Assembly (NCBI GenBank): GCA_018780145.1
Contig: JADMKA010000125.1
Location: 1 to 57,903, forward strand
Source of the DNA: Vitreoscilla sp.
GTDB lineage: Bacteria; Pseudomonadota; Gammaproteobacteria; Burkholderiales; Burkholderiaceae_C
Direction of reading: 5' to 3'
Length of the DNA: 57,903 nt
The notes under the pieces are model-generated. The model was not told where the DNA came from. It did no database searches and saw only the letters and a list, made by a program, of their open reading frames with translations. Position numbers and translations under genes: made by a program. Below are positions 19,618 to 28,312 of this stretch, one piece after another (position 1 is the stretch's first letter; each line of letters begins with the position of its first letter).

Positions 19618-22600
19618 ATGAGCGACGACATCCAGATCCGCACGGTCACGGTCGAGCTGCTGCGCTCCGGGCCGGCGCACAACCAGCTGCTGTCGCCACT
19701 GACGCTGTACCTCGGCGTCTGCGACGATGCCGAGGCGGGTATCGTCACCTTGCCCTACGAGCAGCACACCTTCTTGCGCCGCATGCGGGCCATGCGCTAC
19801 GACGGCAAGGGCGCCAAGGAAGACAAGCTGCCCGAGCTGCGCGCCATGGGTGTCGACATGGCCAAGGTGCTGGGCGCGATCCCGCGCCTGCCGGGTTCGT
19901 TGGGGGGCGATGGGCAGGGCCGCGACACCCTCGTGCACCTGAGCCTGGTGCTGTCGGCCTCCGAGCTGGCCTCGCTGCCGTTCGAGCTGGCCAAGGTGCC
20001 GATCGGGCCCACCGCGTGGACCGAGAGCTGGCTGGCGCTGCAGGCGCGGGTGCCGGTGGTCATCACCCGCCGCACCCGCAATGTGTCGCCGGGCAACCTG
20101 CGCTGGCTGCACGAGCCACGCATCCTGTTCATCTCCTCCGACCCGCACCCGGACAACATCCCCTTCGCCGAGCACCGTGCAGCGATGATCTCGGCGGTCA
20201 AGCCCTTCCTGCGCAGCGACGAGCTGAAGCCCATGCGCAGCCTGAAGGGCCGCCGCGAGCAGTTCGGCGGCCTGCTGACCATCATCCGCAACGCCCGCTT
20301 CGAGGAGGTGGTGGCCGAATGCGCGGCGCACCGCTACACCCACATCCACGTGCTGGCCCATGGCGACACCGACGACTCGCGCGGCGACAAGACCTACGGC
20401 CTGCGCTTGCACACCGAAGACGGCGTGATCTCCGGCGAGCGGCTGGCCAGCGCCTTTGCCTGCATGGTGCACGGCGCGATCCACCGGCCCGACGTGGTGA
20501 CCCTCGGCACCTGCGACAGCGGGAACAGCAGCGAGCTGATCGCCCCCGGCGCCAGCATCGCCCATGTGCTGCACCAGGCGGGCATTCCGCTGGTCGTGGC
20601 CTCGCAGTTCCCGCTCAGCAAGGCCGGCTCGGTGCTGGTCGCCAAGGAGTTCTACAGCGGCCTGCTGTGGGGCGAGAACCCCTGGGTGCTGCTGCACCGC
20701 GTGCGCACCGGCTTGCATGGCCGCCTGCAGCCGCAAGACCACGACTGGGCCAGCCTGGTGGTCTACGAGTCGCTGCCGGCCAACCTGAGCTACCAGCTCG
20801 ACAAGGCCCGTTTCAGCCAATGCAGCGCGGCCATGGACGCCGCCTTCGCCAGCAGCGGTGACTGGTCCGAAGGCGCCGAGACCCACGACGAGCAGGCGCC
20901 GCTGTGCGACCCGGTGGACGACGTCATCGCCCGGCTGCCGATGCGCAGCAAGTACGTGGGCATGCAGTCGCTGGCCCTGCGTGCCGGCGGCCGGCTGCAG
21001 CAGGCACAAGAGACCTTCTTCGCCGCGCCCACCGACGCCGAGCATGCGCGCGACTACCGTGACTGCGTGCTGACCTGCTGCGCCTTGCTGGAGGAGGCAC
21101 TGGTCGACTACGAAAGTGCGGTGAACGGCTTCCTGGTCAACGACGGCCAGGGCATGAACGCGCCGTACCGCGCCCTGGTGGCCCAGCTCAGCCTGTCGGC
21201 CGTGCTGGGCCGCGGCTTCTCGCACGGTGCCTGGCACATGGCCCGCTACTGGGTCGAGGCCACGCTGGCGCGCTCCCCTGAAACAGAGGAGAAGCTCTGG
21301 GCCCAGGGTTGCCTGGCCGAGCTGTGGCTGCTCAAGCTGACCGACCCGTCCATGCCGGGTGTCGACGAGTCGCCCACGCGCGCCGTGGCCAACGCCAAGG
21401 CGGCGATCACCGCGATGCTCAGGCTGGACCGCTCGGGCACCAGCTGGCCCTGCGAGTGGACCTACAACCAGCTGCGCTCCTATGTGGAGTGGTGGGGCGA
21501 GCGGGGCTTCGAGGAGATCATCTTCAATTTCAGCCAGGCCGATCGCCACTCGTTCCGGGACGGCCGGCCCAACGTCGTGCAGACGGCCAAGGCCTTGCTC
21601 GACCTGATCGACCGGCTCGGCGGCGGCGGCCGGGCCTTCGGCATGGAGGCCATGGCCGCCGAGCCCGAACCTGAACCGGCCCCCGCCCCCAAGGCGCCTG
21701 CCAAGAAGGCGGGCCAGCAAGCCACCAAGCCGCCCGCGAAACCGCCCGCCAGCCAGGCCAGCCGCAAGACCGCTGCCGCCACCGCGCAGGCCGAGGCCGA
21801 ACCGCCGGGCGACACCCATCTGCTGGGCAGTGCCCCGGCGGCACGCTCGTCGGTGCAACCCACCCGGGGGGGCGAGCCCTACCTGCGCGTCGAGATGCTG
21901 CCGGCCGGCCACGGTGATGCACTGTGGATCGAGTATGGGCAGACCGGCGGTGCCACGCACCGCGTGCTGGTGGACTGCGGCACCACCGGCACCTACAAGA
22001 ACGCGCTGAAGAAGCGCATCGAGCGGGTGCCGTCGGCCGAGCGCCACTTCGAGCTGTTCGTGCTCTCGCACATCGATGCCGACCACATCGGGGGGGCCAT
22101 CCCGTTCCTGAAGGAAGCCAAGGCACTGGGCGTCAGCTTCGGCGATGTCTGGTTCAACGGCTTCAAGCATCTGGCCTCGATGATGGGCTCCACCCAGGGC
22201 GAGGTGTTCTCGGTGCTGATCCAGGACAACGAGCTGCCCTGGAACCGGGCCTTCAAGGGCCGGGCAGTGGTGGTGCAAGGCGGCAAGCTGCCGGTGGTCA
22301 CGTTACCGGGCGGCATGGTGCTCACCGTGCTGTCGCCTACGCCGCCTAGGCTGAAGGCGCTGGGCGAAACCTGGGAGAAGGAGATCGAGGCGCTGGGCCT
22401 GAAGCCCGGTGACGCCGACGCGGTGCGCCAGCGCTTCCTGGCCCACAAGGACAACGTGTCCACCTCCGAGAACGTCGCGGCGCTGGCGCAGGAGGAGTTC
22501 AACCCGGATTCGGCCGAGGCCAACGGCAGCAGCATCGCCGTGCTGGCGGAGTACCAGGGCAGGTCGGTGTTGCTGGGCGCGGACGCCCATGCGCCGGTGC

Positions 22601-22947
22601 TGGTGGAGACGATCAAACTGCTGCTGCGCCAGCGCAGGATCTTGCGCCTGCCGGTCGGCGCGTTCAAGGTCCCACACCACGCCAGCCAGAACAACCTCGA
22701 TGCCGGCCTGATGGGCCTGCTGAGCTGCAGGAACTACCTCATCTCCACCAACGGCTCGCACTTCAACCACCCGGACCGGCAGGCGATCGCCCGGGTCATC
22801 GCCCATGGCGGCGAGCGGCCCCAGCTGTGGTTCAACTTCAAGAGCCCGCTGAACGAGGTCTGGGCCAAGCCGGCCCTGCAGAAGAAGTACGCCTACGACG
22901 CCTTCTTCCCCGCGGGCAAGGAACCCGGGCTGGCGATCACGCTTTGA
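19618..22947 (+). CDS. CHAT (caspase-like) protease fused to a metallo-beta-lactamase-fold domain
   Basis: A 1109-residue two-enzyme protein. The N-terminal part to about residue 390 is a CHAT domain: the catalytic dyad is His248 in IHVLAHGDTDD and Cys299 in TLGTCDSGNSSE, followed by AGIPLVVASQFPLSKAGSVLVAKEFYSGLL. A helical, TPR-like middle runs to about 640. An Ala/Pro/Lys-rich linker (about 655-730) leads to an MBL-fold domain of the ComEC-like type: His818, Asp820, Asp822 and His823 in SHIDADHIGG, Asp989 in LLGADAH, and His1020-His1021 in VPHHASQNN. No signal peptide or membrane helix is seen. CHAT proteases elsewhere cleave partner proteins in defence and cell death; the MBL domain may be a hydrolase or nuclease. 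The 3' end overlaps the convergent lipase gene by 11 bases. The ATG at 19618 follows a modest GAGGCAGG site. Confidence 0.88.
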   Translation: MSDDIQIRTVTVELLRSGPAHNQLLSPLTLYLGVCDDAEAGIVTLPYEQHTFLRRMRAMRYDGKGAKEDKLPELRAMGVDMAKVLGAIPRLPGSLGGDGQGRDTLVHLSLVLSASELASLPFELAKVPIGPTAWTESWLALQARVPVVITRRTRNVSPGNLRWLHEPRILFISSDPHPDNIPFAEHRAAMISAVKPFLRSDELKPMRSLKGRREQFGGLLTIIRNARFEEVVAECAAHRYTHIHVLAHGDTDDSRGDKTYGLRLHTEDGVISGERLASAFACMVHGAIHRPDVVTLGTCDSGNSSELIAPGASIAHVLHQAGIPLVVASQFPLSKAGSVLVAKEFYSGLLWGENPWVLLHRVRTGLHGRLQPQDHDWASLVVYESLPANLSYQLDKARFSQCSAAMDAAFASSGDWSEGAETHDEQAPLCDPVDDVIARLPMRSKYVGMQSLALRAGGRLQQAQETFFAAPTDAEHARDYRDCVLTCCALLEEALVDYESAVNGFLVNDGQGMNAPYRALVAQLSLSAVLGRGFSHGAWHMARYWVEATLARSPETEEKLWAQGCLAELWLLKLTDPSMPGVDESPTRAVANAKAAITAMLRLDRSGTSWPCEWTYNQLRSYVEWWGERGFEEIIFNFSQADRHSFRDGRPNVVQTAKALLDLIDRLGGGGRAFGMEAMAAEPEPEPAPAPKAPAKKAGQQATKPPAKPPASQASRKTAAATAQAEAEPPGDTHLLGSAPAARSSVQPTRGGEPYLRVEMLPAGHGDALWIEYGQTGGATHRVLVDCGTTGTYKNALKKRIERVPSAERHFELFVLSHIDADHIGGAIPFLKEAKALGVSFGDVWFNGFKHLASMMGSTQGEVFSVLIQDNELPWNRAFKGRAVVVQGGKLPVVTLPGGMVLTVLSPTPPRLKALGETWEKEIEALGLKPGDADAVRQRFLAHKDNVSTSENVAALAQEEFNPDSAEANGSSIAVLAEYQGRSVLLGADAHAPVLVETIKLLLRQRRILRLPVGAFKVPHHASQNNLDAGLMGLLSCRNYLISTNGSHFNHPDRQAIARVIAHGGERPQLWFNFKSPLNEVWAKPALQKKYAYDAFFPAGKEPGLAITL

Positions 22948-24064
22948 GCTGGGCGTCCGCGGGCAGCGGCGCAGGCTGGCCGCGGGCGATCCGGTTGGTG
23001 TCGGCGGCCGGCGGGTGCAGGGCGGCGTCGCCCTGGAGGTAGCGCCCCAGGTTGGCTGGCCGGTAGCGGCATTCGGCCCGGTCCCAGCGGTCGATGGCCG
23101 AGCGGTGCACCACTTCACCGTCGGCCAGGTGCTGGCCGATGGGCCGCTCGTGTGGCCCCATCAAGCGGTACATCGTGCTCATCGAGTCGTGGTGCACCGA
23201 ATCGAAGTGCGGCTCGAACTTGGAGAGGTAGGCCGAATCCAGCGCGAGGCCCAGGTGCTCTGCCTGCTCGGCCACCCAGTGCAGCGCCTCGTTGGCCAGG
23301 CCATCGGGCTTGCAGCCCCCACCGACGTTGGAATGCGCACCGGCAAACCAGGCCTGCACGAGGTGGCCCTTCCAACCCGGTGGGCGGGCCCACAGGCTGG
23401 CATCGAAGGGCTGGCGGTGCTCGTCGATGGCCACCGCGTGCACCGCGTGCTCGATGCAGTCGTTCAGCCCCACGTCGTGGTACTGGTACCGGCCGCGGTT
23501 GAGCAACTGGCCCAGCAGCCCGGGCGCACCGAGCGCGCCCACCGTGTCCCAGACACCCACCATACGGATCGGCGGGCAGGGCCGGTGGCCCTTGACCTTG
23601 TGGAACGCCAGGTCCCATTCGGGCGTGCCCGGGCCGGCGTTGCGCTCATAGCAGGCGTAGAGCTCGGGCACGTAGTAGTCGTCGTCCTTCTCGACCAGGC
23701 CGAGCCGGCGCATGAAGCCGGCCAGGCTGCGTACCGTGAAGGCGCCGCGGCTGAAGCCGAAGAAGTACAGCTCGTCGCCCGGCGCATGGTTGTAGGCGAT
23801 GAAGCGGTACAGCGCGCGGATGTTGGCCTCCATGCCGGCGCCGAACGCGCCCCCGGTGAGGCGGTCCAGCGGGCCGCCGTTGCCGACACCGTCGTGGTAG
23901 TAGACGACCTGGTCCGTGCCGTCGGGTGCGCGCGGCAGCACGGCCCGGGCCAGTTTGGTCACATTGGTGGGCCGGCGCTTGCCGCTGGCAGCGTTCAGCT
24001 GATCCCGGTGGTTCCAGGTGCCGTCGGCACAGATGATGATGCGCTTCAAGGAGTCTCCTGCCAT
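22937..24064 (-). CDS. DUF2235 / Tle1-like phospholipase domain protein
   Basis: A 375-residue alpha/beta hydrolase of the DUF2235 family, which includes type VI secretion phospholipase effectors of the Tle1 kind. The start (SLKRIIICADGTWN) is the family hallmark. The nucleophile is Ser105 in FFGFSRGAF, the acid is probably Asp173 in VGVWDTVGALG and the base His244 in AGAHSNVGGG. There is no signal peptide. I start at ATG 24064 (MAGDSLK) with a GGAG-like site; an upstream ATG at 24151 adds 29 residues of no family likeness. It is convergent with the CHAT-MBL gene and divergent from the peptidoglycan-binding gene. No VgrG, PAAR, chaperone or immunity gene is seen nearby, so a secretion role is unproven. 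Confidence 0.87.
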   Translation of the reverse strand: MAGDSLKRIIICADGTWNHRDQLNAASGKRRPTNVTKLARAVLPRAPDGTDQVVYYHDGVGNGGPLDRLTGGAFGAGMEANIRALYRFIAYNHAPGDELYFFGFSRGAFTVRSLAGFMRRLGLVEKDDDYYVPELYACYERNAGPGTPEWDLAFHKVKGHRPCPPIRMVGVWDTVGALGAPGLLGQLLNRGRYQYHDVGLNDCIEHAVHAVAIDEHRQPFDASLWARPPGWKGHLVQAWFAGAHSNVGGGCKPDGLANEALHWVAEQAEHLGLALDSAYLSKFEPHFDSVHHDSMSTMYRLMGPHERPIGQHLADGEVVHRSAIDRWDRAECRYRPANLGRYLQGDAALHPPAADTNRIARGQPAPLPADAQLKA

Positions 24065-24127
24065 GCTGGCAGGCGCAGGGTGCCAAAGAACGACCCCGGT
24101 GCCAACCCGGGCGGGCCCGTGCCTGCT

Positions 24128-24155
24128 TGCCAAACGTCGTGCGACTGACATACTC
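24128..24155 (+). promoter_or_regulatory. Weak candidate promoter for the peptidoglycan-binding gene
   Basis: TTGCCA at 24128-24133 and CATACT at 24150-24155 are separated by 16 bases and stand 41 bases before ATG 24197. The match to sigma-70 consensus is modest. A TCGACA motif follows at 24155-24160. The 132-base gap also has to serve the divergent lipase gene. Confidence 0.3.
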
Positions 24156-24196
24156 GACAGGGGTCGCTATCGTGCGGCCCAAACGGAGGTCTGGCC

Positions 24197-25408
24197 ATGG
24201 TTGAACTCGGTTGCTTCGACGCAGGCGTTTCCACGGCAGCCTGCACGGCCTATGCGGCAGAACTCCAGAAGCTCACCCGCGTCGCCCTGAGCGAGGTGGT
24301 CAGCGTCCCCGACAAGCTGGTGTTCAAGCCCCTGGAGGCGCAGCCCGAAGGCGCCATGACGGTGGCCCAGGTGCAGCGCGGGCTGGCAGCGATCGGCTTC
24401 TTCCCCGGTGGCAAGGACGACGGCATCTGCGGCTACCGCACGCAGTCGGCCATCCGCCTGTTCCAGGAGTACGTGCGCTCGGTCGAGAAGCAGCCGATCA
24501 TGCCGGACGGCCGATTCGGCCCCGAGACCCAGGTGCACCTGCGCCGCTGGCTCGACAACCACGTGCAGTCGCGCTACGCACCCACCATGACGGCCTGGCA
24601 GGCCGGCACGCTGGGCCGGTGCGAGTACACCGATTGGCTGGACCTGCTCAACCAGGTCAAGGCCAAGTACCTGGCCGAGCCCACGCCGATGCTGCAACTG
24701 GTGAACCGCTCGACGGCCGGCTCGGACACCCGCAAGGTGGCCGACTGGGATTTCAGCTCGGCGGGCACCATCCACCTGATCGGCGTCCGGCGCAAGGTGG
24801 CCGCCGGCCGCTTCGACGACATCTTCGTGCTGCTGATGAAGGGCCTGGTGTTCAAGTTCCAGGGCTCGACCGACCCGGGCTCGGCGGCCGCCGGCGAGTT
24901 CCCGCCGTTTCTGGTGCAGGGCCAGCACAACTACCAGTTCGGCTGGCACCAGAAGAAGTACCTGGCGCTCAGGCCGCATACCAAGGGCGTGCTGGTGGTC
25001 CGCTCGAAGAACGGCATCACGCTGGACGATGACGATCTGGCCAACGGCCTGGACGTGCCCAACTTCACCATCAACATCCACTGGGGCGGCCAGGGCATGG
25101 GCGCCACGATCAACGATTTTTCGCAGGGCTGCCAGGTGATCAACGGCAGCGTCTACTTCAACCCGGACGGCGAGCTGGTCGACTGCCGCCCGTTCTCGGC
25201 GCTGAACAACAAGGAAATCGCGGCCAACCCGAAGAAGACGCGCGCCGCCTACAACGTGCTGCTCGACCACGTGACCGCTCTCTCGGGGGACCTGCCGAGC
25301 AACACGGTGAAGTACATGCTGCTGACCGAGGACGATCTGGCGCTCGCTCCGGCCCTGGCCAAGAGCCTGGACGACGCGAAAGCGCTGATCGCCAAGGCAC
25401 TCGGCTAG
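24197..25408 (+). CDS. Peptidoglycan-binding protein with L,D-transpeptidase-like domain
   Basis: A 403-residue protein. Residues about 52-118 form a peptidoglycan-binding type 1 domain (TVAQVQRGLAAIGFFPGG, then GYRTQSAIRLFQEY and GRFGPETQVHLRRW). The C-terminal half has the YkuD-like signature of cysteine L,D-transpeptidases or related peptidases: His295 in INIHWGGQG and Cys312 in FSQGCQVING. No signal peptide is evident, although both domains act on murein; it may leave the cell by another route or act after lysis. GGAGGT at 24185-24190 gives a strong ribosome binding site for ATG 24197. It ends 6 bases before the convergent multidomain gene, with which it shares a peptidoglycan-binding module. 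Confidence 0.83.
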   Translation: MVELGCFDAGVSTAACTAYAAELQKLTRVALSEVVSVPDKLVFKPLEAQPEGAMTVAQVQRGLAAIGFFPGGKDDGICGYRTQSAIRLFQEYVRSVEKQPIMPDGRFGPETQVHLRRWLDNHVQSRYAPTMTAWQAGTLGRCEYTDWLDLLNQVKAKYLAEPTPMLQLVNRSTAGSDTRKVADWDFSSAGTIHLIGVRRKVAAGRFDDIFVLLMKGLVFKFQGSTDPGSAAAGEFPPFLVQGQHNYQFGWHQKKYLALRPHTKGVLVVRSKNGITLDDDDLANGLDVPNFTINIHWGGQGMGATINDFSQGCQVINGSVYFNPDGELVDCRPFSALNNKEIAANPKKTRAAYNVLLDHVTALSGDLPSNTVKYMLLTEDDLALAPALAKSLDDAKALIAKALG

Positions 25409-25414
25409 GCTCTG

Positions 25415-28312
25415 CTAGAACCCCCGCAGATCGTCCGGCGGCGCCACCAGCGGGGTGCCGACGATGCGGCCGAGCGTGCGCGCCACCACGGCCACGTCGT
25501 TGTCGAAGCTGCCGTGGCCCGCGCCGATGCGCTTGTCGGGTTGCGCCACCATCACCTTGTCGCTGTCGAGCACGCCGAGCCGATCGGGCTGCATCAAGCC
25601 GGCCTCGGAAGCGGCCCGGCGCCAGGCGCGCAAGGTGTCGCCGGTGCTGGAGGTGCCGTCCCAGCCGGCATAGTCCTCGTTGAAGACATTCTGCAGCCCC
25701 AGGATCGGGGTGCGCAGATCGACCTCCAGCGCATTCGAGACGAAGTACAGCAACGACTTGCGGTAGATCGAGGCCACGTTGTCGTTGCGCTCGACGCGGT
25801 CGGACAGCAGGTCGATGTACAGGCTCTTCATCAGCGCCGCGTTGGGCGCGTAGTGCCGGTTGGCGAACTGCACCGTGCAGGCCGGCGCGTAGAGGTGGGT
25901 GGACTTGACCACCTCGGACAACCGCCGTGCGGCCATGGCCGTGAGCAGGTGGCCCAGCAGGATCGACCCGGCCGAGTGGCCCACCACGTGCACCTCGAAC
26001 TGGTCGCCCCAGGTGTCGCGCAGCTTCTGCAGCGCGGTGATCAGCAGGTCGCCGCCGCGGCCGGTGCCGAACGCCAGCTCGGCGTTCTCCTTCATCTCGC
26101 TCCAGACTGGCCTTGCCAGCGGCCGGCCGATGGATTTCTCCACCAGCAGGTCGGTGCGGTCGGTGATCCACTCGCCGACGCCGGCCGCCACCGCCGGCTG
26201 CTTGCGCCAGGCGTCGCTGATGATGCTGGCAATCGTTTCGAGCAGGCCGGTCTTCCAGACCATGAAAACGGGATAGCAGCCGTTGGCGATGAAATGCCGG
26301 CCCAGCGCCCGGGCCCGCTGGATGGCGGCGGCCTCGCTGTTCAGGCCGCCGTGGGCGTAGATCACCAGCCGCTTGGGCTGCTTGGCAGGTTGCGTGCGGA
26401 ACCACTGGTCCGGCAGGCCGGCCACCTGGTGCAGCAGCGTGCGGCTGAGTTCGTCCTCGGTGAGGTAGCGCTTCATGCGGCCGTCGTTGCCCAGCACGAC
26501 GCTGTGCTGGTAGGCCTGCTCCTGGCTCCACCACAGGCTGGTGTTGGCACCCCCGGCGGCCCCCTTGGCGACGCTGCCGCCACCGGCACCGACTCGGCCC
26601 ACCACCACGCCCGGCACGCCCAGCGCCACCACCCAGGCGTCCATGCCGTTGGCCAGCCAATCGGCGTAGCTCAGCACCGCGAAGCCACCCAGTCCCCATT
26701 GGGGGCCCCAGGAGTTCTGGATCACGAAGCCCTGGGCGTTGAAGCCGACCAGTGCAAAGGCGTGGCCGTCGACCTCCGACGGCCGGCCATCGAAGGCGAT
26801 CACCGGCAGCTCGGCGTGCCCCTTGGGCAGGCGCGACACTTGCGGCACGGCGGCCCAGCCTTCGTGGGTGAAGGCCGAGACATACACCGCGCCGACCTCC
26901 TGGATGGCCGACTGCAGATCGGTGATCGAGCGCAGCTCGACGCGGAAGTACACACCCAGAGTCTGCTGCGACGCGCGTTGCGCATAACCGTAGCGCGGCC
27001 GGGTGGTCGGGTCGTCGGTGTAGGGCCAGTCGGCCTCCAGGCAGACGCCGTGGTTGAACCAGCCCTTGAGCGCGCCGCGGCAACTGGAGCCGTCGTAGTC
27101 CTCGCCTGCGTACTCGTCGTATCGCCGGGCGAAGTTGTAGAGCATGCGCGGGCTGACCGAAGGGAGCTTCTTCGGGTACCGGGCCTTGCGCCAGCGCAGC
27201 TGGTTCACCACGCAGGCCAGGCCGAAGCCGGTGCAGGCGCCTTCCGCGCCCTGGTCGAGGATCAGCCCGGCCTTGGTGTAGGTGGGCAGCAGGGCCTTCA
27301 CGTCCTCGTCGGTGGGGAAGGCGTCGTACAGGCTGACGGGCGGCGGGATGTACGGGCGGTCGCGCAGGTCGCTCGGGTCCTTGCGCACCGTGAGGCTGCG
27401 CTTGGGCGCCGCCGCGGCCGGGGCTGCTGCCTTCAGCTTGGCCTTGCCCTTGGCGGCCTTGGTGCCGGCCTTCGGCTTGCGTGATCCGCCGGCCAGGCCG
27501 GCCGGTGCCAGGGGCCAGGCCTTCAGCGACAGCTTGAAGACATCGATGAAACGGTCCTTGCCGTGCGAGCCGCCATTGACCAGCTTGCGCGCGCCCAGGT
27601 AGTCGTCCTTGGCCAGCGCCACGCGCATCTTGTCGGCGCAGTCGGCCAGGAAGCGTGCCAACAGCACCGAGGCCACTTCGGGGGCGTTGGCCAGGTCCGC
27701 GTTGCCGACGAGGTCGATGCCCAGCACCTTGCTGTACTTCTCGTAGTTGTAGCGCCCGGTCAGTTGCACAAAGCCGCGGCCCTTGAAGCGGGCGCCGTCA
27801 CCGGGCTGCTTGTTCTTCAACCTGTCGGCGCCTTCGTAGGCGCTGAAAGGCGCCTGCCCGGGCAGGGTGTTGAACTGCGAGGGGAACTCGGAGATCGGCA
27901 GGAAGCCTTCGCTCTCGGCGCGGATGGTGCCCAGCGCGGCGCAGATCATCGGCCGGTCGGTCAGCCCGGCAGCCCCCAGCGCCGAGGCCACGTAGGGCAG
28001 GTAACGGTCGATGTTGGCCGGCTTGGTGGCGGGGAACAGCGCGCGCACCGAGGCCAGATCCAGCTTCACCGCCATCGCCTCGGGCTGCCGCAGGCCCAGC
28101 AGCTCCTGGCAGCGTGGGCCGATGACGCCATCGGCCACCAGGCCGACACCGCTTTGCCAGCGCCGCGCCGCAGCCTCGACATCGGCATCGAGCACATCGC
28201 CGGTGGCCAGGTTGCCGAAGGCCGCGGCATCGGGCCCCAGTTGCTGCGCCAGGGCCTTTCGCAGTGCGGCCACGTCCGGGCCCTGGGCATTGCGGATCAG
28301 GAGGTTCTGCAT
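25415..28312 (-). CDS. Four-domain hydrolase: PG-binding, GH19, papain-like protease, alpha/beta hydrolase
   Basis: A 965-residue protein. Domain 1 (about 1-75) is a peptidoglycan-binding fold (DVAALRKALAQQLG, GLVADGVIGPRCQELLGL). Domain 2 (about 85-265) is GH19 chitinase/lysozyme-like, with Glu133/Glu135 in IRAESEGFLP and FKGRGFVQLTGRYNY at 176-190. A Lys/Ala-rich linker (275-305) follows. Domain 3 (about 315-570) is a C1A papain-like protease with Gln354, Cys360 (DQGAEGACTGFG), His517 (DGHAFALVGF) and Asn533 (IQNSWGPQWG). Domain 4 (about 645-965) is an alpha/beta hydrolase with Ser780 in VVGHSAGS and VIYAHGGLNSE near its start. All catalytic positions look intact. No signal peptide is seen. 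GGAG precedes the ATG at 28312. Architecture and neighbours suggest a lysis or antagonism effector; this is inference. Confidence 0.85.
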   Translation of the reverse strand: MQNLLIRNAQGPDVAALRKALAQQLGPDAAAFGNLATGDVLDADVEAAARRWQSGVGLVADGVIGPRCQELLGLRQPEAMAVKLDLASVRALFPATKPANIDRYLPYVASALGAAGLTDRPMICAALGTIRAESEGFLPISEFPSQFNTLPGQAPFSAYEGADRLKNKQPGDGARFKGRGFVQLTGRYNYEKYSKVLGIDLVGNADLANAPEVASVLLARFLADCADKMRVALAKDDYLGARKLVNGGSHGKDRFIDVFKLSLKAWPLAPAGLAGGSRKPKAGTKAAKGKAKLKAAAPAAAAPKRSLTVRKDPSDLRDRPYIPPPVSLYDAFPTDEDVKALLPTYTKAGLILDQGAEGACTGFGLACVVNQLRWRKARYPKKLPSVSPRMLYNFARRYDEYAGEDYDGSSCRGALKGWFNHGVCLEADWPYTDDPTTRPRYGYAQRASQQTLGVYFRVELRSITDLQSAIQEVGAVYVSAFTHEGWAAVPQVSRLPKGHAELPVIAFDGRPSEVDGHAFALVGFNAQGFVIQNSWGPQWGLGGFAVLSYADWLANGMDAWVVALGVPGVVVGRVGAGGGSVAKGAAGGANTSLWWSQEQAYQHSVVLGNDGRMKRYLTEDELSRTLLHQVAGLPDQWFRTQPAKQPKRLVIYAHGGLNSEAAAIQRARALGRHFIANGCYPVFMVWKTGLLETIASIISDAWRKQPAVAAGVGEWITDRTDLLVEKSIGRPLARPVWSEMKENAELAFGTGRGGDLLITALQKLRDTWGDQFEVHVVGHSAGSILLGHLLTAMAARRLSEVVKSTHLYAPACTVQFANRHYAPNAALMKSLYIDLLSDRVERNDNVASIYRKSLLYFVSNALEVDLRTPILGLQNVFNEDYAGWDGTSSTGDTLRAWRRAASEAGLMQPDRLGVLDSDKVMVAQPDKRIGAGHGSFDNDVAVVARTLGRIVGTPLVAPPDDLRGF

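Follow-up and report, generated by a model that had tools for sequence, protein, structure and literature searches.

What do four large hydrolase genes, packed tightly on alternating strands, do in a Vitreoscilla genome? The window analysed here is the whole of a 57,903-nucleotide stretch (Vitreoscilla sp., GenBank assembly GCA_018780145.1, contig JADMKA010000125.1, forward strand, positions counted from its first letter), in which genes 1 to 4 run from 19,618 to 28,312. An earlier reading made from the letters alone (below, the sequence-only reading) had proposed that the four encode one lytic system around a CHAT protease. We find gene 1 to be an in-frame fusion of two kinds of protein, a CHAT protease and a ComEC-like metallo-beta-lactamase (MBL), and genes 1 and 2 to fit a death module of protease, pro-nuclease and lipase in which protease and nuclease share one chain. 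The reading we favour, at a probability of roughly one half, is that gene 1 is a protease-controlled pro-nuclease in a single chain, with the gene 2 lipase as second executor.

Gene 1 joins a CHAT protease to a ComEC-like MBL

The first part of gene 1 is recognised as a CHAT domain (Pfam E 1.4e-20; 74.3 bits against a cut-off of 24); CHAT proteases belong with the caspases. His248 (20359-20361) and Cys299 (20512-20514), which we take to be the catalytic dyad, are invariant in five aligned sequences, those of the window and four relatives. By BLAST, residues 7-467 match separate CHAT proteins of 669-679 amino acids at 33-39% identity, from Ideonella relatives (two genomes, G011 and G015), Methylobacterium and Paraburkholderia. 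A profile comparison pairs residues ~519-629 with the second part of these CHAT proteins (L071, L072, L177 and L202; E 3.4e-5), and a multiple alignment with the stand-alone CHAT proteins reaches about residue 690 at 30-36% identity. The TPR-S model of Pfam found no match in the TPR-like region of gene 1, in L071 or in L178, and scored 23.5 bits against a cut-off of 27.6 in L177. No CHAT relative turned up in viral contigs. The genome itself encodes three further CHAT proteins (G000:C139:7641-8414, G000:C271:23407-24168 and G000:C231:28367-29278).

Third-position G+C stays at 0.83-0.97 along the whole reading frame, the linker between protease part and MBL included. Start codons are present inside this linker, and to judge from them the MBL part may also be translated separately.

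Beyond the linker, the MBL is matched by Pfam (E 7.5e-6) and, in PADLOC, by LmuA (E 1.4e-68), Avs1a and RTasMBL. Its metal ligands, HIDADH (HxDxDH; residues 818-823), Asp989 and His1020-His1021, are invariant in 12 rows comprising gene 1 and 11 homologues from 11 loci. The profile of these rows has ComEC structures as its best match (9ic4, E 1.6e-14). Between two conserved blocks, ComEC 9ic4 has 62 residues against 135 in the MBL profile, two insertions adding ~73; Gly857 and Gly861 are conserved in the first of them, gate 1. According to the main text of Tuck et al. 2025 (PMC12799240), gated MBL nucleases are proenzymes that a partner protease unlocks, a trypsin-like one in Hachiman and AVAST. 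The MBL of gene 1 is best read as belonging to this gated pro-nuclease type, with insertions predicted to block its site. DNA is therefore the first predicted target, one that the sequence-only reading, which listed protein, lipid and murein, had lacked.

In a 30-row MBL tree, six rows from Avs1a, ABC-three-component and trypsin loci split off with support 92/90; gene 1 stands on the other side, with the caspase and lipase loci, its position within that side being unresolved. The tree was built without Klebsiella CanC (KaeCanC), and loci are called canu-like by gene order. With the NCBIfam Avs1a model, the MBL scores 204.6 bits, below the cut-off of 420, and no Avs1b trypsin-STAND partner is found among the neighbouring genes scanned. 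Viral contigs hold three MBL relatives, one of them a good match.

Gene 1 has matches in 8 of 100 genomes (its own and 99 relatives), which outside the window cover the MBL half or the CHAT half only, never both in one frame. In print we found no CHAT-MBL fusion in defence, in a search outside which lay supplements and most subscription-journal papers.

Table 1. Features of the four genes and their positions in the window
Feature	Positions	Strand	Basis
Gene 1, 1109 aa: CHAT protease, TPR-like region, linker, gated MBL (predicted pro-nuclease)	19618..22947	+	Open reading frame, Pfam, PADLOC
CHAT protease domain, gene 1	19618..20937	+	Pfam, alignment
TPR-like helical region, gene 1	20938..21687	+	TPR-S-like by homology to CHAT proteins L071, L072, L177, L202
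Ala/Pro/Lys-rich linker, ~60 residues, from protease part to MBL of gene 1	21688..21873	+	Sequence
MBL domain, ComEC/Avs1a type, gene 1	21874..22938	+	Alignments, profile
First insertion, gate 1, aa ~850-876, MBL of gene 1	22165..22245	+	Alignments
Second insertion, gate 2, aa ~920-963, variable, MBL of gene 1	22375..22506	+	Alignments
Gene 2, DUF2235 (Tle1-like) lipase, 404 aa, GFSRG nucleophile elbow at aa 132	22937..24151	-	Open reading frame, Pfam
Gene 3, 403 aa, peptidoglycan-binding and L,D-transpeptidase-like domain with His295, Ser309, Cys312	24197..25408	+	Pfam, alignment
Gene 4, PGBD-GH19-papain-alpha/beta hydrolase, 965 aa; neighbour, outside the proposed system	25415..28312	-	Pfam, PHROGs, fold

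Lipase genes recur beside relatives of the MBL

What accompanies this MBL elsewhere? At 6 of 13 non-redundant plasmid loci, in Sinorhizobium, Bradyrhizobium, Caballeronia, Agrobacterium, Streptomyces and Rhizobium, the MBL relative is the third gene of a caspase-hypothetical-MBL run, the caspase being so called by annotation and checked with Pfam in Sinorhizobium. The middle proteins of these runs are related to one another. In a Bosea plasmid the MBL relative lies between two caspase genes, and in the six remaining loci its neighbour is a large hypothetical, a small hypothetical, a MoxR ATPase run, a serine protease or an S8 peptidase. By gene order, the caspase-hypothetical-MBL loci look like the canu system of Tuck et al. 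2025 (PMC12799240).

Gene 2 is a DUF2235 protein (the family is now named Tle1-like catalytic; E 4.4e-75, 253 bits against a cut-off of 27) with matches in 12 of the 100 genomes, and lipases of this or the patatin kind are found at several MBL loci. By Pfam, G364 carries patatin-caspase-hypothetical-MBL and Bradyrhizobium DUF2235-caspase-hypothetical-MBL. The actinomycete Miltoncostaea has S8 peptidase, MBL and DUF2235 genes in a row with gaps of 7 bases; in G064, G008 and G041 the order is patatin-large protein-MBL (Pfam for the first two). A divergent patatin accompanies the Sinorhizobium MBL locus, and G183 has one ~3.5 kb from its MBL. The lipase gene is adjacent and on the same strand in L075, L077, L079, L180, L190 and L199. 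In G019 a metallophosphoesterase occupies the position held by patatin in relatives, and the slot is therefore apparently exchangeable.

Altogether, patatin or DUF2235 occurs at 8 of 23 non-redundant MBL loci and at none of 80 control loci (Fisher p 2e-6), or at 8 of 28 when five Avs1a/ABC-three-component outgroup loci, none with a lipase, are added (p 9e-6). The 23 are 13 plasmid loci, nine genome loci (contig 27 of the window's own genome included) and one viral contig; 24 were scanned, and the near-duplicates L074 and L078 were counted once. The plasmid loci represent 20 of 63 records with an MBL match, many of which are near-identical Agrobacterium copies: besides the 13 counted, these are the near-duplicates L200 and L201, left out and both carrying a lipase, and the five outgroup loci. 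Two more MBL loci have an alpha/beta hydrolase, in Streptomyces (by annotation) and on the genome's own contig 27 (fused to a caspase).

Some of these loci hold further genes. The large protein between patatin and MBL (~970-1010 aa; L075 5422-8403, L077 5612-8545, L079 9065-12109) has no Pfam match in L075, and no conserved catalytic cysteine was seen in it; a protein of the same kind lies between metallophosphoesterase and MBL at L076 5733-8657. The second MBL locus of the Vitreoscilla genome (L073, contig 27, 2000-20000) is a rich conflict locus, with genes for a small protein with hydrophobic stretches (by eye), a fusion of caspase and alpha/beta hydrolase (DUF7379), a caspase-nSTAND1-TPR protein, the MBL and a TPR protein. 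In Rhizobium etli (L196), the MBL relative follows MoxR ATPase and hypothetical genes, with a large S8 peptidase gene nearby. Annotated wall enzymes, namely a lysozyme, an amidase and an M23 peptidase, adjoin the caspase-MBL locus of Bosea (L176 10266-14156).

Genes 3 and 4 and the four-gene set

The layout given in the sequence-only reading holds: the coordinates of the reading frames confirm four large genes on alternating strands (Table 1), the convergent genes 1 and 2 overlap by exactly 11 bases, and the likewise convergent genes 3 and 4 are exactly 6 bases apart. Gene 2 may instead start at Met30 (24064), which would make its divergent gap to gene 3 132 bases. The four are flanked by ordinary genes: to the left those for a CoA-transferase and an HMGL-like enzyme, to the right those for a PQQ-repeat protein and an enzyme of the prolyl oligopeptidase type. 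The base composition of genes 1 to 4 is near that of the surroundings. Evident signal peptides, said to be missing from all four proteins, were indeed not seen in a crude hydropathy scan, the only check made. As to the seven catalytic domains proposed, CHAT, MBL, DUF2235 and papain are borne out by Pfam and GH19 by PHROGs and fold, and the L,D-transpeptidase-like domain of gene 3 and the terminal alpha/beta hydrolase of gene 4 are less certain.

Gene 3 has a PG_binding_1 domain (Pfam E 1.1e-6) and an H...S-x-G-C motif that is invariant in five sequences and in register with YkuD, the match itself not being significant (hhalign E 0.35). A single-sequence structure model was too poor to use (pLDDT 36.8). 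Among the 100 genomes, the gene is found in its own only; four relatives occur among 368 other genomes of a draw from the class. A 398-genome draw from the phylum (own included) gave no further full-length match and two partial matches in one genome, a search of the order of G313 returned its two known genomes only, and plasmids and viral contigs held no relative. Two crAss002 phage records have a short, weak match. In G313 the relative (58% identity) follows, on the same strand, a patatin gene and a TPR-S/DUF4231-SLATT gene, and in G295 it shares its strand with a TIR-FGE protein and a weakly recognised alpha/beta hydrolase; at the G192 and G452 loci (the latter a 5-kb contig) no conflict or lipase neighbour was recognised by eye. 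The association of gene 3 with conflict-system genes and lipases at two of four loci is a lead, not proof, and gene 3 is possibly an accessory gene of the system.

Gene 4 carries a papain domain (Pfam E 4.8e-7) and a GH19 domain that lies just under the Pfam cut-off (23.6 against 25.5 bits) and is matched by PHROGs endolysin (5.6e-30) and by fold (9ms7, TM 0.86 on the target). Structures similar to its model include a phage endolysin and xylellain, which is bacterial and papain-like. The terminal alpha/beta hydrolase has an invariant GHSAG and, in the model, alternating strands and helices; it has no Pfam match, and no such hydrolase is among the 50 fold matches listed. The papain residues Cys360, His517 and Asn533 are invariant in 35 aligned members, as are Ser780 (of GHSAG), Glu133 and Glu142.

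An alignment query of 84,980 species genomes returned at least 495 relatives of gene 4, of which we took the best 80; 78 matched over about the full length, and L149 and L157 over part. With at least 5 kb on both sides at 55 of these 80 loci, no relative of genes 1-3 lies in the flanks of any of the best 80, and no neighbour family recurs within 6 kb in more than seven. Gene 4 is thus widespread and stands alone, its carriers being mostly beta- and gammaproteobacteria; by record titles, a few Desulfobulbaceae are also among the loci of its family (L083-L162). In the 100 genomes it has matches in 30, in four others of which they fall in one full-length frame.

The sequence-only reading had held that the order of the four genes was unlikely to be an accident and that they form one system, and had itself named the four never occurring together elsewhere as the outcome that would count against it. 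The co-occurrence search gave this outcome: no second locus with the set appeared in the genomes searched, and with each gene searched in the 99 relatives, nowhere outside the window do matches to different genes of the set lie next to each other. The nearest two, in G004, are 19 kb apart, one a partial match to GH19 and the other to DUF2235, and tblastn in 26 larger genome stretches agrees, finding no neighbouring relatives of two genes. Given no second locus in the 99 relatives and the independence of gene 4 at its best 80 loci, we rejected a conserved four-gene system. The narrower idea of a CHAT protease that controls lytic executors is supported for gene 1, and perhaps for genes 2 and 3: the MBL groups with those of caspase loci, and DUF2235 or patatin neighbours recur beside such MBLs.

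A model for genes 1 and 2 and its alternatives

Our model starts from what the sequences show: gene 1 is a fusion, it has retained its catalytic residues and carries the two insertions, its MBL groups with those of caspase-hypothetical-MBL loci, and lipases recur as neighbours of such MBLs. From this we infer the identity of the related loci with canu and, for gene 1, a DNase activity and an activation by proteolysis, with a predicted substrate, trigger and outcome, as well as joint action with the lipase. In the resting state, the MBL nuclease would have its active site covered by the two insertions. Infection or damage would give a signal, sensed directly or via the TPR-like region, that activates the CHAT part, probably by oligomerisation. 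The CHAT part would then cut these insertions, either in its own chain or in a neighbouring copy of the protein. The DNase so freed would degrade DNA, and the cell would be killed or arrested before phage release. The gene 2 lipase would act as a second executor at the membrane, as patatin/DUF2235 lipases may do in related caspase/MBL loci. A bolder version, which we consider doubtful, has a death switch in one polypeptide, the lipase as second executor and the gene 3 wall enzyme as third, with DNA, membrane and wall destroyed one after another; lipases would then be a standing fourth partner of canu-type loci, a role that we have not seen described. The breach made by the lipase would let the cytoplasmic gene 3 enzyme reach the wall, much as a holin serves a phage endolysin.

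Several observations weigh against the single-chain pro-nuclease with a lipase partner. No CHAT-MBL fusion was found in the 99 relatives (up to seven candidates scored per genome), in 349 other genomes of the class draw (up to two per genome) or in 71 plasmid records (80% coverage); on these counts the fusion may be a young or a rare one, and it could be a local accident. The closest CHAT relatives of gene 1 are paired with a phosphoesterase, not an MBL, and a glycine seen in gate 2 of many relatives is not retained in gene 1. As for the lipase, 15 of the 23 MBL loci have neither patatin nor DUF2235 (two of these 15 have an alpha/beta hydrolase), and with gene 2 as sole query the count falls to 2 of 23 against 0 of 80 (p 0.048). 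The control consists of gene 4 loci and not of defence loci, several lipase queries were drawn from the loci tested, some loci are related, and the alpha/beta hydrolase query also matched two of the 80 control loci. The runs of L075, L077 and L079 carry a large protein where a protease would be expected. Finally, genes 1 and 2 are convergent and no operon. This arrangement, together with the divergence of genes 2 and 3, would also suit a one-gene protease/pro-nuclease defence, with genes 2, 3 and 4 as chance neighbours in a variable chromosomal spot. We regard this as a plausible but less likely account: relatives of genes 1 and 2 are nowhere neighbours in the 99 relatives, gene 4 is clearly independent, and the four genes resemble their surroundings in composition. 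It is opposed by Bradyrhizobium and an actinomycete, where a relative of gene 2 lies beside an MBL relative and a protease gene, and by the lipase count of 8/23 against 0/80.

The remaining alternatives concern the enzyme and the wider set. The MBL might not be a gated DNase, or might not be activated by CHAT, gene 1 then being some other signalling or processing enzyme. The departure of gate 2 from the relatives points that way, and so do the CHAT/phosphoesterase pairs, from which the CHAT substrate may lie elsewhere; with ComEC-type ligands and both insertions kept, and the MBL grouping with those of caspase loci, we think this unlikely. Two proposals for the wider set fare worse. Genes 2-4 could be antagonism effectors delivered by a type VI secretion system (T6SS) or similar, as DUF2235 being the Tle1 effector fold, the wall-binding domains and the want of evident signal peptides might suggest; the genome (96% complete, 280 contigs) has no VipB sheath protein, VgrG, PAAR and other T6SS parts not having been searched for, and on the lack of VipB we rejected T6SS delivery, leaving the proposal very improbable. 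That all four genes form one lytic system, as first proposed, we judge the most improbable of all. Tight packing and domains able to attack protein, lipid and wall speak for it, and it is contradicted by the missing second locus, by the best 80 gene 4 relatives being without genes 1-3 nearby, and by gene 3 being found in none of the 99 relatives.

Relation to known systems

Systems of the protease/gated-nuclease kind are already known; new here are the one-chain arrangement and the association with lipases. The closest comparison is canu, in the main text of Tuck et al. (PMC12799240) a three-gene system of Klebsiella aerogenes in which a caspase unlocks the nuclease, and in which experiment shows the caspase complex of KaeCanABC activating CanC. 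According to the same text, the nuclease is always a separate gene in the trypsin-paired systems, as it also is in canu. Gene 1 shares with canu a caspase-like cysteine protease and an MBL nuclease with two insertions (a comparison made without KaeCanC itself), and its MBL shares its part of the tree with those of caspase-hypothetical-MBL loci. It differs in that its protease is CHAT rather than a C14 caspase (CanA), in that the CanC-like MBL is fused to it in one chain rather than encoded by a separate downstream gene, and in the lipase gene beside it. The window has no separate CanB gene, whose place the TPR-like region may take; tblastn found in it no relative of the middle protein of L179 and none of the L190 caspase.

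What would the fused arrangement mean? With it, activation could be tested directly on a single protein. It would also suggest that CHAT can do the unlocking in place of a caspase or trypsin, and would agree with regarding bacterial death modules as pairs of a protease and an executor that can be exchanged. The lipases beside these MBLs suggest that canu-like loci have a second executor, one absent from the main text of PMC12799240, where CHAT, DUF2235, patatin, lipase and phospholipase have no occurrence (the supplement lies outside this count).

More distant likenesses are instructive as well. Avs1a, HamM (Hachiman), Lamassu and DRT likewise pair a ComEC-like MBL bearing gating insertions with a protease, but the gene 1 MBL falls outside the Avs1a/ABC-three-component branch and under the NCBIfam Avs1a cut-off. 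Type III-E Craspase (TPR-CHAT, Csx29) also combines a nuclease with a CHAT protease that has helices of the TPR type; unlike gene 1 it is RNA-guided, and no Cas7-11 family protein is among the window proteins scanned with Pfam. We know of no MBL fusion in Craspase. With the T6SS effector Tle1, gene 2 shares the DUF2235 catalytic domain, yet gene 2 adjoins a protease/nuclease gene in a genome where no VipB sheath gene was found.

The CHAT relatives of gene 1 in G011/G015, Methylobacterium and Paraburkholderia have its CHAT and TPR-like architecture, but no fused MBL: in these three lineages (L071, L072, L177 and L202), the partner is a separate gene directly upstream for a homologous protein of 485-503 amino acids, identified as a metallophosphoesterase by Pfam (L071) or annotation (L177). 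The four loci resemble another protease/metallo-enzyme pair. At the Paraburkholderia locus, an annotated wall enzyme of the D-Ala-D-Ala carboxypeptidase family adjoins (L202 12384-12830).

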